The notes beneath the pieces are model-generated. The model had not been told where the DNA came from and ran no database searches. It saw nothing but the letters and a program-made list of their open reading frames with translations. Shown here in pieces: positions 6,764 to 40,913 of a stretch of DNA of 50,701 nucleotides. The position numbers and the translations under genes were made by a program. This stretch comes from Acidobacteria bacterium Ga0077522 (GTDB lineage Bacteria; Acidobacteriota; Vicinamibacteria; Vicinamibacterales; Vicinamibacteraceae): positions 1 to 50,701 of the forward strand of contig LNDN01000025.1 in the NCBI GenBank assembly GCA_001464065.1. Reading direction: 5' to 3'. Positions within the stretch are counted from its first letter, which is position 1. Each line of letters begins with the position of its first letter.

Positions 6764-7809
6764 GCGGCGGCCATGGGCCTTCGGCCTTCGGCCTTCGAGA
6801 GGAACCCGCCCGGTTGCCGGTTCCCGGTTCCCGGTTCCCGAGGCTGTTCCTGGGTATCGACGGCGGGCAGACCGGGACGCAAGCGGTGCTGGCCGATGCC
6901 ACCGGACGCGTGCTCGGGCGCGGCGCCGGCGGCCCCTCCAACCACGTGGAGATGCCGGGCGGTCGCGAGCGCCTGCGTCAGGCGATCCTCGACAGCGCGG
7001 GCGCCGCGCTGGTCGAGGCCGGTCTCGGCGGTCTCGAGCGCGTCAGCTTCGACGCGGTCTACTGCGCGATGACCGGCGAAGCCGACTTCAAGACCGAGAT
7101 CATCACGCCGATGTTCACGGCAGGGGTCGTGCAGGTCGAGCACGATGCACCGGCCGCCCTCGCGGGCGCGACGCTCGGCGCCCCCGGGATCATCGTCGTC
7201 GCTGGTACCGGGTCGGTCGTGTTCGGCGAGAACGCGTCCGGTCAGACGGCACGGACGGGTGGGTGGGGCTATGTCTTCGGCGACGAAGGCAGCGGCTTCG
7301 GCCTGGCGCGTGACGCCGTCCGCGCCGCCCTGGATGCCCTCGATGGCGTCGGTCCCGACACCAGGCTCGTGCCGGTGCTGACCGGGACCTTCGGCGTGAC
7401 CGACCTGCGCCTGCTGCCGATGGTGATGTACAACGGCCACATCAGCCGCGATGGCGTGGCCGCCGCGGCCCGTCAGGTGCTCGACACGTGGCAGGCCGGT
7501 GACGCCGTGGCCACGCGCGTGGTGATGGAGGGACTCGACGCGCTGGCCAGCCGCGTGCAGTCGGTGGCCGCTCGCGTCTGTCTCGACGCACCGCTCGTCT
7601 GCCTCTCCGGCGGGGTGTTTCGCTCGGCGCCGTACGCCGCCGCGTTCGCGGCCGCGGTGCAACGCCGCGTGCCTGCCGCGCACGTCGAGCCTGCCCGTCT
7701 CAGTCCGGCCGCCGGCGCGGTCCTGCTGGCGCTGCGTGCGGGCGGCATTCCGGTGACCGACACCGTGCGCGAGACTTTGCGCGCGTCCGCGCTCGAGGAG
7801 CGTCCGTGA
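6760..7809 (+). CDS. BadF/BadG/N-acetylglucosamine kinase-type ATPase
   Basis: The protein shows the ASKHA-fold signature of the BadF/BadG/BcrA/D group that includes N-acetylglucosamine kinases: phosphate loop 'FLGIDGGQTGTQAVLADATG', 'VVAGTGSVVFG', the highly typical 'GGWGYVFGDEGSGFGLARDA', and 'VCLSGGVF' near the C-terminus. The next gene is nanE, so phosphorylation of ManNAc or GlcNAc is the most likely reaction (inference). The GTG at 6760 gives the operon's usual GTGA overlap. About 28 residues then precede the first conserved strand, and they are encoded largely by heptanucleotide repeats (6776-6796 and 6811-6838). Relatives normally begin a few residues before the GIDGG loop, so either the repeats have expanded inside the gene or translation starts later (TTG 6814 is in frame). 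Confidence 0.85.
   Translation: MSGGHGPSAFGLREEPARLPVPGSRFPRLFLGIDGGQTGTQAVLADATGRVLGRGAGGPSNHVEMPGGRERLRQAILDSAGAALVEAGLGGLERVSFDAVYCAMTGEADFKTEIITPMFTAGVVQVEHDAPAALAGATLGAPGIIVVAGTGSVVFGENASGQTARTGGWGYVFGDEGSGFGLARDAVRAALDALDGVGPDTRLVPVLTGTFGVTDLRLLPMVMYNGHISRDGVAAAARQVLDTWQAGDAVATRVVMEGLDALASRVQSVAARVCLDAPLVCLSGGVFRSAPYAAAFAAAVQRRVPAAHVEPARLSPAAGAVLLALRAGGIPVTDTVRETLRASALEERP
6776..6796 (+). repeat. Heptanucleotide array, 3 x GGCCTTC
   Basis: Three perfect tandem copies of GGCCTTC lie 16 nt after the kinase start codon, inside its reading frame. Seven is not a multiple of three, so a gain or loss of one unit would shift the frame relative to the GTG start. Confidence 0.9.
6811..6838 (+). 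repeat. Heptanucleotide array, CGGTTGC + 3 x CGGTTCC
   Basis: Four tandem heptamers, one CGGTTGC followed by three CGGTTCC, lie immediately before the first conserved strand of the kinase. Together with the GGCCTTC array they encode most of the atypical N-terminal extension, including the 'LPVPGSRFP' segment. Confidence 0.9.
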
Positions 7810-35321: not shown

Positions 35322-37991
35322 GTGGGACCTCGTGATGTCACCCTGAACCTCCTGCTGGTCGGGGCGATGTCGAGCCTGCCGTCCGGCGTCGTCGCCCAGA
35401 CCGCCGACCCCCGCCAACTCCACGCCGCCCGCGCCGTCTCGCCGCCCGTCATCGACGGGCGCCTCGACGATGTCGTCTGGCGCACCGCCGAGCCGATGTC
35501 GGGGTTTCATCAACGTGACCCGGTGGAGGGTGACCCGGCGTCGGAGGACACCGTCGTCCGGATCGCGTACGACGAGCGCGCGCTCTACGTCGCGGCGCGG
35601 CTGCACGATCGCGACCCCTCGGCCATCGTCGGCCAGCTGTCGCGGCGCGATGTCGCCGTCGAGGCCGACGCCTTCGTGGTCTACCTGGACCCGCATCACG
35701 ACCATCTCACGGGCGCGCAGTTCGGCGTCTCGGCGGCCGGCGTGCAGCGAGACGCCCTCATCTACAACGACCAGTTCCTCGACGTCACCTGGGATGCCGT
35801 GTGGTCCTCCGCGGTGTCGGTGGACGACCAGGGCTGGGTCGTGGAGATGCGGATCCCGCTGTCGCAGCTGCGCTTTCCGGCGGCGGACCGCTACACGTGG
35901 GGCATCAACGTCCAGCGCGTGATCCAGCGCCGCAACGAATCGTCCTGGCTGCAACTGGTGCGCAAGAACGAGGCGGGCCTCGCCTCGCGCATGGCCCATC
36001 TCGAGGACATCGTCGGCATCACGCCGCCGGGCACCCTCGAACTGATGCCGTACGTCACCTCGCGTGCCGAGTTCATCGAGCCGCCGCTGGCCGGCAACCC
36101 GTTCAACGACGGCGCGCGCGCGTTCGGGGCCGCGGGCATGGATCTCAAGTACGGCGTCACCAACAGCCTCACGCTCGACGCCAGCTTCAACCCGGACTTC
36201 GGCCAGGTCGAGGTCGATCCCGCCGTGGTGAACCTGACACAGTTCGAGGTGTTCTTCGAGGAGCGGCGCCCGTTCTTCACGGAGGGCGCCAAGGTGTTCG
36301 GCAACTTCGGCCGCAGCGGGGCCAGCGAGTACTGGGGCTTCTTCCGCCCCGAGCCGACGCTGTTCTACAGCCGGCGCATCGGTCGAGCGCCGCAGGGACG
36401 GGCGACGGGCCCGTATGCGGACGCCCCGGGGACGACGACGATCCTCGGCGCCGGCAAGCTGGTCGGCCGCACGCGTCACGGCTGGACGATCGGGGCCCTC
36501 AATGCCGTGACGGGCCGCGAGCAGGCCAGGCTGTTCGACGGCGCGGCGACGACCCGCCGGGACGTCGAGCCCCTGACCAACTACGCGGTGATCCGGGCGC
36601 AGCGCGAGCTGGGGTCGCGGGCGGGGATTGGCGTGCTCGGCACCTCGGTGGTGCGTGAGCAGCGCGATCCGCAGCTGGAGGCCTCGCTGGCCTCGCGCGC
36701 CCACATGCTGGGGATGGACGGCCACTGGTTCCTCGACGCGTCCCGCCGCTGGGTGCTGCATGGCGGCATCGCCGGCAGCTGGCTGCAGGGCAGTCAGGCG
36801 GCGATCGAGCGACTGCAGCGTGCCGAGCAGCGCTACTACCAGCGCCCGGACGCACCCCACGTCTCGCTGGACCGCTCGGCCACGAGCCTGGCGGGCTGGA
36901 CCGGGCAGGCCAATCTCAACAAGCAGAGCGGCAACGTCACGGCCAACTTCGGCGTCTGGGGCATGAGCCCCGGGCTCGAGGTCAACGACCTCGGCTTCTC
37001 GACGCAGACCGATCGGGCTGGCGGCCACGCGATGGTCCTGTTCCGCAAGCTCGTTCCGGATGGCTGGACGCGCGAGCGATCGGCCTGGATCTCGAAGTGG
37101 TGGACCTGGAACTACGGCGCCGAACTGCAGGGTGATGGCTGGCAGGCGGCCAGCAGCATCCAGTACCGCAACTTCTGGCGGTCCACGCTCACGGTGACCC
37201 ATGCCCGGCGAGTCTGGGACGACAAGCTCACGCGCGGCGGGCCGACGATGATCCGGCCCGGCAACCTCGGGGCCCAGCTCTCGGTGGTCACCGACAACCG
37301 GCGCGTGGCGGTGCTCGGCACCGACATCGGGTACACGGCGCGCCAGTACGGGGCGTCGGCCTTCACCGCCGGCACCAGTCTCACGCTCCGCCCCGTGCCG
37401 GCCGTGACGGTCAGCGCCGGACCGGCCATCCGTCGCAACATCGTGGCGGCGCAGTATCTCTCGACGGTGGAGGATCCGCTGGCCACGCAGACGTTCGGTC
37501 GCCGTTACGTGTTCGGCGAACTCGACCAGACCGAGGTCTCGATGATCGCGCGGCTCAGCGTCGTGCTGTCGCCACGGATGTCGCTGCAGACGTTCCTGCA
37601 GCCGCTGGTCTCGGCGGGCGACTACGGCGCCATCAAGGAAGTGGCGGCGCCACGCACGTTCGCCTTCGTGCGGTATGGCGAGGACGCCGGCAGCACGGTC
37701 ACCGCCGGCCCCGGTGGGCAGGGGCTGGTCATCGATCCCGACGGCGCCGGCGCCGCGACGCCGTTCGCCCTCGCGCGCCCGGACTTCAACGTCCGATCGC
37801 TGCGCGCCAACACCGTGTTCCGCTGGGAGTTCCGCCCGGGCTCCGCGCTGTTCTTCGTCTGGACCCAGCAGCGCCGCGACCTCGACGCCACGGGGACCTT
37901 CGACCTGGGCGCCGATGCCGGCCGCGTCTTCGGCGCGCCGGCCGACGACGTCCTGCTCGTGAAGATGTCGTACTGGTTCGGGGGCAGGTGA
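35322..37991 (+). CDS. DUF5916 outer-membrane protein with CBM9-like N-terminus
   Basis: The 889-residue protein has a signal peptide (about 1-24, ending GVVAQ), then a carbohydrate-binding-family-9-like beta-sandwich: 'VIDGRLDDVVWRTAEPMSGF', 'VRIAYDERALYVAARLHD', 'AFVVYLDPHHDH', 'WVVEMRIPLSQLRFP'. The large remainder is the DUF5916 beta-barrel: 'DLKYGVTNSLTLDASFNPDF', 'GQVEVDPAVVNLTQFEVFFE', 'ERRPFFTEGAKVFG', and alternating-residue strands to a C-terminal 'VLLVKMSYWFGGR'. That terminal aromatic strand is typical of outer-membrane insertion. I chose the GTG at 35322 because it immediately follows the TACAAT box. It probably binds or passes a carbohydrate or peptide at the cell surface (inference); no activity has been shown for the family. 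Confidence 0.9.
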   Translation: MGPRDVTLNLLLVGAMSSLPSGVVAQTADPRQLHAARAVSPPVIDGRLDDVVWRTAEPMSGFHQRDPVEGDPASEDTVVRIAYDERALYVAARLHDRDPSAIVGQLSRRDVAVEADAFVVYLDPHHDHLTGAQFGVSAAGVQRDALIYNDQFLDVTWDAVWSSAVSVDDQGWVVEMRIPLSQLRFPAADRYTWGINVQRVIQRRNESSWLQLVRKNEAGLASRMAHLEDIVGITPPGTLELMPYVTSRAEFIEPPLAGNPFNDGARAFGAAGMDLKYGVTNSLTLDASFNPDFGQVEVDPAVVNLTQFEVFFEERRPFFTEGAKVFGNFGRSGASEYWGFFRPEPTLFYSRRIGRAPQGRATGPYADAPGTTTILGAGKLVGRTRHGWTIGALNAVTGREQARLFDGAATTRRDVEPLTNYAVIRAQRELGSRAGIGVLGTSVVREQRDPQLEASLASRAHMLGMDGHWFLDASRRWVLHGGIAGSWLQGSQAAIERLQRAEQRYYQRPDAPHVSLDRSATSLAGWTGQANLNKQSGNVTANFGVWGMSPGLEVNDLGFSTQTDRAGGHAMVLFRKLVPDGWTRERSAWISKWWTWNYGAELQGDGWQAASSIQYRNFWRSTLTVTHARRVWDDKLTRGGPTMIRPGNLGAQLSVVTDNRRVAVLGTDIGYTARQYGASAFTAGTSLTLRPVPAVTVSAGPAIRRNIVAAQYLSTVEDPLATQTFGRRYVFGELDQTEVSMIARLSVVLSPRMSLQTFLQPLVSAGDYGAIKEVAAPRTFAFVRYGEDAGSTVTAGPGGQGLVIDPDGAGAATPFALARPDFNVRSLRANTVFRWEFRPGSALFFVWTQQRRDLDATGTFDLGADAGRVFGAPADDVLLVKMSYWFGGR

Positions 37992-37992
37992 G

Positions 37993-38068
37993 AAGGGACA
38001 CGTACGCAAGTCACAAGGGCGCCAAGGGAGAAGGGACAGGGACGGCAGTCGCAAGGGCGGCAAGGGAC
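37993..38068 (+). repeat. Imperfect 38-bp tandem duplication with G-rich heptamers
   Basis: Two 38-nt units (37993-38030 and 38031-38068) match at about 31 of 38 positions. Both start AAGGGACA and end in an AAGGG-rich segment. Internally they are built from 7-8-mers such as AAGGGAC and AAGGGCG. Bases 38017-38041 hold four GGG runs with loops of 6, 4 and 3 nt, a canonical G-quadruplex pattern. The sequence sits directly after the DUF5916 stop. Confidence 0.75.
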
Positions 38069-38162
38069 GGGGACGGACGTTCACCAGTGGCGAGGAGCTG
38101 CGAGCCTTGGGCGTAGCCGGCCCTGTGCCTTGTCTCCCGTGTGACTTGCGTACTCGTCCCTT
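37993..38162. repeat. 27-bp inverted repeat flanking ~116 bp
   Basis: The left arm 37993-38019 and the right arm 38136-38162 are reverse complements at 24 of 27 positions, sharing a GTACGCAAGTCACA core. The inside is G-rich on the left and C/T-rich on the right, with no open reading frame of note. It is too short for an insertion sequence but has the look of a miniature inverted-repeat element or a large transcribed hairpin/terminator. The stretch 38163-38234 to the promoter of the next gene shows nothing else recognisable. Confidence 0.75.
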
Positions 38163-38234
38163 GTCCCTTGCCCTGTTCGCTGTAGGAGAAATCCGACGCC
38201 GATCCTGCCTTGAGTCCTGAGCCCCGAGCCCGTA

Positions 38235-38240
38235 TACACT
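38235..38240 (+). promoter_or_regulatory. Candidate -10 box (TACACT)
   Basis: TATACACT occurs at 38233-38240, 12 nt before the ATG at 38253. A transcript starting 6-7 nt after the box would have a leader of about 6 nt. Confidence 0.4.
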
Positions 38241-38252
38241 CTGCACACCGCC

Positions 38253-39161
38253 ATGCCCATGAATCGACGCGCGTTCCTTTCGGCAACGGCCTCGGCGGCC
38301 GTGGTCACGACCCTGTCTCCGGCCTCTGCTCCCGCGGCGCCGATCAGTCGGGCTGGTCAGAGCCAGCTGCGGATCGGGCTGGCGGCGTACTCGATGCGCC
38401 AGTACCTCCAGGCCAAGCCCGGCACCAAGGGCAAGATGGACCTGCTCGGGTTCATCGACTGGTCGGCGACGCTGGGCGTCGATGCCGTGGAGCTGACGTC
38501 CTACTTCTTTCCGGAGACGTTCGATCGGGCTTACCTGAACGAGGTCAAGCGCCGCTGCCACATCAACGGCCTCGACATCTCCGGCGGCGCCATCCGGAAC
38601 AACTTCACGCTGCCGGACGAGGACCCCGAGCTGCAGAAGTGGCTGACGCACACCGACACCTGGCTCGGCCACTACGCCGTGCTCGGGGCGCCGGTGGTCC
38701 GGGTGTTCAGCGGCGTGCCGCCCAAGGGGATGACCGAGGAGCAGGGCATCGCCAACGGCATCAAGAACCTCAAGAAGGCGCTGGTCTTCGCCGAGAAGCA
38801 TGGCGTGATCCTCGGGCTCGAGAATCACGACTACCTGATGAAGATCGATCGCATGCTGCCGGCGCTCAAGGCGATCGACTCGCCCTGGTTCGGCGTCAAT
38901 CTGGACTCGGGCAACGTCGACGACACCGACGTCTACACGCAGTTGCAGAAGATCGTGCCCTACGCCGTCAACGTGCAGCTCAAGGTCGACACCGGCCCGG
39001 TCAAGGCCAAGGTGCCGACCGACGTGCCGCGTTTCGTCAAGATGCTCAAGGACGCCAACTACCGCGGCTACGTCGTCCTCGAGTACGAGTCGGCCCCTGA
39101 TCCGTACGAGGCCATCCCGAAGCACCTTGCCGCCCTTCGCGACGCCATCGGAAAGGCCTGA
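38253..39161 (+). CDS. Tat-exported sugar phosphate isomerase/epimerase-like TIM barrel
   Basis: This 302-residue protein has a twin-arginine signal N-R-R-A-F-L (residues 4-9) and a hydrophobic Ala-rich stretch ending near residue 30. The TIM barrel of the AP-endonuclease-2-like superfamily follows: 'GVDAVELTSYFFPETF', 'RRCHINGLDISGGAIRNNF', 'VVRVFSGVPPKG', 'GVILGLENHDYLMKIDRM' (Glu-Asn-His metal site), 'WFGVNLDSGNVDDTD' (Asp-Ser-Gly-Asn) and 'RGYVVLEYES' with a last glutamate. An ATG at 38259 is an alternative start. It resembles the 10932-12035 protein in type but not closely in sequence. It lies 3 nt before pntA2, so it may be co-transcribed; a functional link to transhydrogenase is not obvious. 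Confidence 0.88.
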   Translation: MPMNRRAFLSATASAAVVTTLSPASAPAAPISRAGQSQLRIGLAAYSMRQYLQAKPGTKGKMDLLGFIDWSATLGVDAVELTSYFFPETFDRAYLNEVKRRCHINGLDISGGAIRNNFTLPDEDPELQKWLTHTDTWLGHYAVLGAPVVRVFSGVPPKGMTEEQGIANGIKNLKKALVFAEKHGVILGLENHDYLMKIDRMLPALKAIDSPWFGVNLDSGNVDDTDVYTQLQKIVPYAVNVQLKVDTGPVKAKVPTDVPRFVKMLKDANYRGYVVLEYESAPDPYEAIPKHLAALRDAIGKA

Positions 39162-39452: not shown

Positions 39453-40843
39453 GCCCGCAGACGATCGATCTCGTCTACCTCGTCTCCGCGGCGCTCTTCA
39501 TCTTCTCGCTCAAGTGGATGAGCGACCCGAAGACGGCGCGCAACGGCGTCTTCGCCGGCGTCGCCGCCATGGCGCTGGCCGTGGCCGGCACGCTGCTGCG
39601 GCCCGACATCACCGCCGGCGGCTACACGTGGATCTTCGTCGCCGTCGTCCTCGGCACGATGGTCGGCGTGCCGCTGTCGTGGGTGCCACTGACGGCCGTC
39701 CCGCAGCGGACCGCGTTGTCGCACGCGTTCGGTGGCCTGGCCGCCGGCCTGGTCGGCATCGGCAAGTACTACCTGTTCCTGCACGACGGTGATCTGACGG
39801 CGTTCCGCACGGGAGCCATCGTCTTCGAGGTGGCGCTGGGCCTGATGACCTGCACCGGCAGCCTGGTGGCCGCCGGCAAGCTGCAGGAAGTGCTGCCGAC
39901 CCGCCCGGTGACCTACCCGGGACAGAACTTCGTCAACTTCGCGCTGATCGGCGCCGGCGTCCTCATCGGCATCGCGCTGGTGGTCAACCCGACGCTGACC
40001 TTCCTGTTCCCGGTGCTGATCGTGCTCGCGCTGGCCTTCGGCGTGATGCTGGTGATGCCGATCGGCGGCGCCGACATGCCGACCGTGATCTCGCTGCTGA
40101 ACTCGTACGCCGGCCTGGCCGCCGTCGCGATGGGCTTCGTGCTCGAGAACAAGCTGCTCATCGTCGCCGGCGCGCTGGACGGGTCGTCGGGCCTGATCCT
40201 GTCGATCATCATGTGCCGGGCCATGAACCGGTCGTTCACCAACGTCCTGTTCGGGGCCTTCGGTCAGGTGACGGCGGCCAAGGGCGCCGTGGAGCAGCGA
40301 TCGGTCAAGTCGGCGACGATCGAGGACGCCGCGCAGATCCTCGAAGCCGCCGACCGCGTCGTCATCGTGCCCGGCTACGGCATGGCCGTCGCCCAGGCGC
40401 AGCATCGCGTCCGCGACGTCTTCGAGCAACTGACGAAGAAGGGCATCAACGTGCAGTTCGCCGTCCACCCGGTGGCCGGCCGCATGCCCGGCCACATGAA
40501 CGTGCTGCTGGCCGAGGCCGAGATTCCCTACGACAAGCTCGTCGAGATGGACGACATCAACCCCGAGATGAGCCAGATCGACGTCTGCATCATCCTCGGC
40601 GCCAACGACGTCGTGAACCCGGCGGCCCGCCACGACAAGAGCAGCCCGATCTATGGCATGCCGATCATCGACGCCGACAAGGCCAGGACCGTCCTGGCGA
40701 ACAAGCGCTCGATGAACCCGGGCTTTGCCGGCATCGAGAACGAACTCTACTTCGCCCCCAACACGCTGATGATGTTCGGCGACTCGAAGGTCGTGATGGG
40801 CGAACTGGCCAAGGCGCTCAGTGGCGAGAGCGGCGGGCACTAG
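39449..40843 (+). CDS. pntB: NAD(P) transhydrogenase subunit beta
   Basis: At 464 residues this has the usual PntB length. The N-terminal two-thirds consists of membrane helices with 'GGADMPTVISLLNSYAGLAA' and 'GFVLENKLLIVAGALDGSSG'. The C-terminal domain III binds NADP(H): 'VVIVPGYGMAVAQAQH' (modified Rossmann loop), 'FAVHPVAGRMPGHMNVLLAEA', 'ILGANDVVNPAA', 'GMPIIDADKARTV' and 'GFAGIENELYF'. These are near-invariant in the family. The ATG start is coupled to pntA2 (ATGA). It supplies NADPH at the expense of the proton gradient. Downstream lies a repeat tract (40849-40913) and a new gene. Confidence 0.97.
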   Translation: MSPQTIDLVYLVSAALFIFSLKWMSDPKTARNGVFAGVAAMALAVAGTLLRPDITAGGYTWIFVAVVLGTMVGVPLSWVPLTAVPQRTALSHAFGGLAAGLVGIGKYYLFLHDGDLTAFRTGAIVFEVALGLMTCTGSLVAAGKLQEVLPTRPVTYPGQNFVNFALIGAGVLIGIALVVNPTLTFLFPVLIVLALAFGVMLVMPIGGADMPTVISLLNSYAGLAAVAMGFVLENKLLIVAGALDGSSGLILSIIMCRAMNRSFTNVLFGAFGQVTAAKGAVEQRSVKSATIEDAAQILEAADRVVIVPGYGMAVAQAQHRVRDVFEQLTKKGINVQFAVHPVAGRMPGHMNVLLAEAEIPYDKLVEMDDINPEMSQIDVCIILGANDVVNPAARHDKSSPIYGMPIIDADKARTVLANKRSMNPGFAGIENELYFAPNTLMMFGDSKVVMGELAKALSGESGGH

Positions 40844-40848
40844 CCGGC

Positions 40849-40913
40849 ATGCCGGAATGCCGGAATGCCGAATGCCGAATGTGGAATGCTGAGGGAATGA
40901 GGGACGAAGGGCG
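40849..40913 (+). repeat. Heptamer/octamer tract with ATGCCGA units
   Basis: Successive units are two ATGCCGGA, two ATGCCGA, ATGTGGA, ATGCTGA, then GGGAATG, AGGGACG and AAGGGCG. The ATGCCGA unit is the same as at 8519-8532, and AAGGGCG recurs at 38015-38021. The tract fills the gap between pntB and the next gene, and its purine-rich end lies just before the TTG start at 40920. No open frame passes through it. Confidence 0.85.

Follow-up and report, generated by a model that had tools for sequence, protein, structure and literature searches.

An intergenic inverted repeat in Luteitalea as one copy of a dispersed, border-anchored heptamer repeat family

The window, a 50,701-nucleotide stretch of contig LNDN01000025.1 from Acidobacteria bacterium Ga0077522, holds an inverted repeat in the 261-bp gap at 37992-38252, between a DUF5916/CBM9 gene and a TIM-barrel gene that both lie on the + strand, and the question this locus raises is what kind of sequence puts such a palindrome between two genes. 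The sequence-only reading had described a 27-bp inverted repeat around a 38-bp tandem duplication with a G-quadruplex motif, and had proposed a miniature mobile element, a transcription-ending hairpin or a regulatory RNA structure. Its anatomy of the gap holds: 37993-38019 agrees with the reverse complement of 38136-38162 at 24 of 27 positions, Tandem Repeats Finder (TRF) recovers the duplication at 37990-38067 (period 38, 2.1 copies, score 114), and the four GGG runs, whose loops measure 6, 4 and 3, conform to the usual pattern of a G-quadruplex. The inverted repeat is longer than the 27 bp reported, with full arms of 53 nt at 37982-38034 and 38121-38173 that are 79% complementary (on the right side it runs on past the model-matched arm end), and the best ungapped inverted repeat in the gap scores 28, where 200 shuffled versions of it average 9.1 and reach 13 at most. 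The left arm's first heptamer, CAGGTGA, takes in the stop codon of the upstream gene, and the 38-bp duplication is a second arm placed head to tail (Table 1).

Table 1. Features of the window locus and its two neighbouring genes (positions in the window)
Feature	Position	Strand	Basis
Upstream gene, DUF5916 with CBM9-like domain	35322..37991	+	Pfam, gene call; left arm starts at its stop codon
Left arm, model positions 1-57	37985..38041	+	Model match, E 4.5e-12
Left-arm core AAGTCACAAGGG	38008-38019	+	Core position
G-quadruplex motif, four GGG runs	38017..38041	+	Sequence
Second head-to-tail copy, 38-bp period	38028..38067	+	TRF; 76% to copy 1
Second-copy core CAGTCGCAAGGG	38046-38057	+	Read from sequence
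Spacer between arms, outside arm model	38068..38120	no strand	Sequence and arm model
Right arm, inverted; core GTGACTTGCGTAC on + strand	38121..38170	-	Model match, E 6.4e-11
Downstream gene, xylose isomerase-like TIM barrel	38253..39161	+	Pfam PF01261

The arm and its family

The family is built from a directional arm of 57 bp in which eight CAAGGGA-like heptamers follow one another at a spacing of 7/7/8/7/9/7/7, the series being interrupted by one 1-nt and one 2-nt insertion; its consensus, drawn from 59 arms hand-picked from the fetched loci and the window, is CAAGGGACAAGGGACAAGGAnACAAGTCACAAGGGCGnCAAGGGACAAGGGACAAGG. The fourth unit is a fixed variant, CAAGTCA, that contains the letters of greatest constancy, with AGTCAC near-invariant. 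The conservation of AGTCAC suggests that a putative factor, copying or binding, recognises the arm. CsrA binding at ACAAGGGAC-like sites, which we take to resemble the CsrA binding site, was tried and dropped, since CsrA is present in 5 of 5 genus genomes, arm-bearing or not, which makes the test uninformative. The arm is not itself palindromic, and its consensus alone folds at only -2.6 kcal/mol. A profile search of the fetched loci, which had been selected for carrying arms, gave 146 arms, 90 of them in 45 convergent pairs with spacers of -4 to 145 bp and 56 single; arms may also follow one another head to tail, as four do in G002 (L040), where tandem arms are non-independent counts. The link to a heptamer family that had been drawn from the letters is borne out by the eight heptamers of the arm. 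It fares less well for the tract at 40843-40913: AAGGGCG is common to that tract and to position 38015, but the tract has no AGTCAC core and consists mostly of GAATGCC, and so is the same kind of sequence from a different family.

Used as a query in the window's own genome (G000), the 271-bp region finds 42 matches across many contigs. The exact 12-mer AAGTCACAAGGG occurs 19, 15, 6, 1 and 0 times in G000 and in four further genomes of the genus Luteitalea, G001 to G004 (G001 presumably being L. pratensis), and once in each of two of the 55 other relatives searched, with 0 occurrences of the reversed 12-mer in the five genus genomes. An arm model using sequence only, built from the arms of G000, G001 and G002, counts 44, 55 and 65 arms in these three genomes; G004 has a single arm and G003 has none, and the other 55 genomes together have three (one in G031 and two in G045). 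The window locus represents one copy of an intergenic repeat family dispersed through three Luteitalea species. Searches with family arms gave nothing in phages or plasmids at E<=0.01, and the 25-position core pattern gave nothing in viral contigs; an origin from phage or plasmid was rejected on these grounds.

Gene borders, copying and word change

The arms are anchored at gene borders. With a codon-usage gene caller, which replaced an earlier caller whose over-long starts had put 27 elements inside ORFs, 136 of the 146 arms were placed after 7 that fell inside genes and 3 that lacked a neighbour gene had been dropped. From the outer arm end to a stop codon the median distance is 9 bp (n=77) and from the inner end 151 bp (n=71), the corresponding figures for start codons being 52 bp (n=59) and 189 bp; in 44 cases the arm starts within 12 bp of a stop codon. 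Of the 136 arms, 115 have their outer end nearer the border than their inner end, as do 43 of the 50 single arms (p=2e-7), and the G-rich strand runs from the gene border into the gap. Classified by the flanking genes, 91 of 101 elements comprise 43 co-directional, 27 convergent and 21 divergent cases, against 71, 14 and 48 among 133 arm-free gaps of at least 120 bp, so that convergent gaps are over-represented among elements. The orientation rule is weak in other heptamer families, which obey it in 27 of 43 arrays (p=0.13) over an unbiased 250 kb (the window plus 100 kb each of G001 and G002) and in 59 of 89 arrays (p=0.003) over all loci.

Elements are both copied and inherited. Three dispersed whole-element pairs are 84-90% alike over 183-219 bp, whereas most elements share arms only and homology of this grade is seen in few of the 45 pairs; three tandem sets are 96-98% alike. 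Whole elements are thus sometimes copied as a unit, and the arm is not always that unit. At L034 2943-3617 (G001 near 6,339,300) lie three tandem units of about 223 bp, 98% alike, each made of a REP-like palindrome and a CAAGGGA element. Six gene borders (sites A-F) have an arm in two or three species, a count that covers fetched loci only and that more sites may join, and together the dispersed whole-element copies and the six shared positions show copying and inheritance. Mean arm identity is 0.75-0.78 within genomes, 0.63 between G001 and G002 and 0.67 between G000 and G001, so that arms are more alike within than between genomes where G001 is involved; between G000 and G002 it is 0.753, nearly equal to within-genome likeness. 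In four comparisons, positional orthologs involving G001 show a likeness of 0.54-0.67, which does not surpass that of random arms from the two genomes and lies below the within-genome means of 0.74-0.80; this argues that arms have been homogenised or replaced within genomes while some positions persisted. The seven positional-ortholog comparisons between G000 and G002 give 0.71-0.89, the 0.89 belonging to the pair at site E, as expected under plain inheritance.

The words themselves change between species. At the junction orthologous to that of the two window genes, G001 carries GCAGGCT and CGAACGC words and G002 GGGCTCA words, in both cases starting a few bases from the stop codon. Across the 250 kb, exact runs at lags 7, 14 and 21 dominate the gaps, the window alone having few (3 at lag 7, 1 at lag 8). 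Among 37 comparisons of orthologous junctions with at least one gap above 60 bp, an exact array or an arm is present in at least one species in 18, and the 4 comparisons (2 junctions) with an array or arm in both have no common word. Some junctions measure 1-10 bp or a 4-bp overlap in two species and 174-199 bp in the third, filled with heptamers and REP-like palindromes. One convergent junction, at G002 5,592,674-5,592,827, is 174 bp long, against 1 bp in G001 and 10 bp in G000, with a GGGCTCA array at one stop, CGCCTGA at the other and REP-like palindromes between. In the window, the GAATGCC/GGGAATG-type tract at 40843-40913 begins at the stop codon of the PntB gene, and its orthologous junction has CGAACGC words in G001 and GGGCTCA words in G002; GGCCTTC and GGTTCCC tracts at 6764-6840 lie a few bases past a stop codon, and the G002 gap has GGGAATC-like words.

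Competing explanations

We favour, as probable if only by a little, a reading of the window locus as border-anchored intergenic repeat DNA that expands through slippage and the duplication of arms, whole elements being copied now and then. Arms at both borders of a gap produce a long inverted repeat, as at the window locus, and the gap-filling tract would lengthen through heptamer slippage and duplicated arms, would from time to time be copied whole to other junctions, and would be excluded from genes by selection. Any transcript of it would fold into a long hairpin lying between the two genes of the window, and as a side effect this hairpin may delay decay of the 3' end or reduce read-through. 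Against this reading stands the fixed 57-bp order, which slippage alone leaves unexplained. A non-autonomous MITE- or REPIN-like element, whose whole 150-250 bp inverted repeat is copied in trans and whose single arms are decayed remnants, would also fit the multiple copies, the sharp outer end and the dispersed and tandem whole-element copies, and RAYT-type Y1 transposase matches number 2, 4 and 2 in the three arm-bearing genomes and 0 in each of the other two of the genus. We nevertheless regard it as rather unlikely, given that whole-element homology is confined to few pairs, that none of the 8 Y1_Tnp loci has a family arm at E<=1, these loci carrying other, GTAG-headed palindromes, that the flanks have no target duplications (mean longest direct repeat 2.49 versus 2.46 permuted, n=45), that left-left and right-right arm similarities are uncorrelated in three genomes (Mantel p 0.14-0.33), and that paired arms are not more conserved than single ones in any of the three (permutation p 0.82, 0.40 and 0.68), unlike REPIN doublets. 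Of the miniature mobile element first proposed there thus remain the copies, found by the suggested copy search, their sharp outer end and the three dispersed pairs, while target duplications, left and right arms that generally travel together and a transposase linked to the arms (RAYT and RVT_1 families searched) were not found. Among the matches listed, several of the RAYT-like genes at L067-L074 are flanked by GTAG-headed palindromes such as GTAGGG(C/A)CGGCTCTCCGAGCCG, and L067 has a long tandem array of them.

Folding gives the case for a functional RNA or DNA hairpin, acting between genes as a bidirectional terminator or as a stabiliser of mRNA 3' ends: each of the 45 paired elements outdoes its mononucleotide shuffles in folding (median z -7.8), a fold with z -2.46 against dinucleotide shuffles is predicted for the 271-nt window region, and convergent gaps are enriched. 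The strong folding of the 45 pairs, however, follows from the likeness of every arm to one consensus, and under selection for a hairpin, as under an origin by inverted duplication, the arms of one element should match each other best. They do not: complementarity is 0.741 within elements and 0.754 across them (41 pairs, 4 near-duplicates dropped), or 0.807 and 0.813 with G-U pairs allowed, in a test whose power is limited by all arms being close to one consensus. A hairpin selected as RNA was rejected for this lack of coupling, and the window palindrome has the look of one arm at each border, not of a hairpin whose halves evolved together. The hairpin of the transcription-ending proposal is predicted, but 37900-38300 contains 0 sites of the intrinsic-terminator kind (a GC-rich hairpin followed by a T run); the genes flanking 21 of the 91 classified elements are divergent, no partner was detected for 56 of 146 arms, and the element is missing at the orthologous junction in two congeners, so that a functional hairpin seems to us doubtful. 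That absence also divides the outcome of the refutation test attached to the first description, a unique sequence with arms not conserved in orthologous gaps: the sequence belongs to a family, yet the orthologous gap in both congeners holds other heptamers. The suggestion of a regulatory RNA structure gained nothing from Rfam, which had no match at gathering thresholds anywhere in the window. A repeat acting through G-quadruplex DNA or RNA, as proposed for heptamers of Xanthomonas and Nostoc, appears very unlikely: the words are of the G3N4 form, a strict motif is present at the window locus and 28 of 146 arms have one where shuffles predict 5.1, but 118 arms lack it, and AGTCAC, the most conserved part of the arm, breaks up the G-runs. 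It is also conceivable, if improbable, that the arms are laid down separately at each border by a directional process that begins at the DNA end on the gene side and extends the G-rich strand into the gap; repeated rounds of repair synthesis at the two ends of a break between genes, which are then joined, would be one example. End-writing of this kind would leave the arms convergent and uncoupled, put different words at either end of a gap and let the word at one junction change between species. A reverse transcriptase is an unlikely writer because no RVT_1 (PF00078) protein was found at E<=0.001 in G000, G001 or G002, and templated, telomerase-like writing by such an enzyme was set aside for the same reason.

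Relation to described repeats

The closest known case is the GGGAATC repeat of Xanthomonas. Rehm et al. 2015 (PMC4692102) describe GGGAATC and GGGGA(C/T)T repeats in Xanthomonas and Nostoc as intergenic 7-bp G3N4 words whose G-rich strand is sense just after stops and antisense before starts, with 70 convergent inverted pairs in Xcc and 75 in Xac, fewer repeats between divergent genes and most lying between the same genes in two species; their function is given as unknown, and a G-quadruplex role is suggested. The Luteitalea arms share the 7-bp period, the G-runs, the G-rich strand directed away from the border and the convergent pairs. They differ in the unit (GGGACAA rather than GGGNATC or GGGGA(C/T)T), in belonging to another phylum, in the fixed 57-bp arm with its invariant AGTCAC, in the many heptamer words within one genus and their replacement at orthologous junctions, and in having the strict motif in just 28 of 146 arms where the Xanthomonas and Nostoc repeats prefer four G-quadruplex-forming units. 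In sequence, host and some of its rules the Luteitalea repeat is new, and it otherwise resembles these heptamers.

As portrayed by Bertels and Rainey 2011 (PMC3116915), REPINs or REP doublets are likewise intergenic inverted doublets with a variable spacer, and the hairpin-forming, lineage-specific character of REPs (Di Nocera et al. 2013, PMC3733652; PMC3116915) is shared as well. Unlike these, the Luteitalea arm is not palindromic, has no GTAG or CGTC tag that we saw, does not stand beside RAYT genes and is not more conserved in doublets than in singles, and RAYT/REP membership was rejected on the three of these points that were tested (flanking of RAYT genes, a palindromic REP, doublet conservation). 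The lack of target-site duplications in the flank test (n=45) sets the elements apart from MITEs. The TAACTGA repeats of Beggiatoaceae (MacGregor 2015, PMC4679880) are direct heptamer repeats of one word, mostly just upstream of starts; they are like the Luteitalea repeats in being intergenic heptamers near gene borders with many sets per genome, and unlike them in having no inverted arm. PMC4692102 also mentions the heptanucleotide repeats of the cyanobacterium Calothrix, which are short tandem heptamers. The Luteitalea arms resemble them in being short tandem heptamers in a bacterial genome. We know of no arm structure or border rule for the Calothrix repeats. In our literature search, with subscription papers mostly outside it, no description of the present repeats in Luteitalea or Acidobacteria was found.

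Heptamer repeats at gene ends have been noted in a few bacterial groups, and their period of seven, strand direction and spread lack explanation. Three comparable Luteitalea species have different heptamer words, short gaps or full arms at the same junctions, and their 57-bp arm is sufficiently conserved for a factor that binds or copies it to be sought; these together make the origin of such repeats testable. Should the arms turn out to be inert, they would still caution that pairing need not be under selection for long intergenic hairpins that look conserved to arise. Beyond the genus, perfect GGGACAA arrays (21-mer, one mismatch allowed) occur in 7 of 193 genomes of the class, with 44 sites in G096, from another family of the order, and on the one G096 contig read (L114) they lie near gene borders without the AGTCAC core. 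The reversed 21-mer control, itself a GGGAACA array, has 55, 26 and 33 sites in G048, G138 and G140, which belong to another genus of the order that seems to have a heptamer word of its own, GGGAACA.
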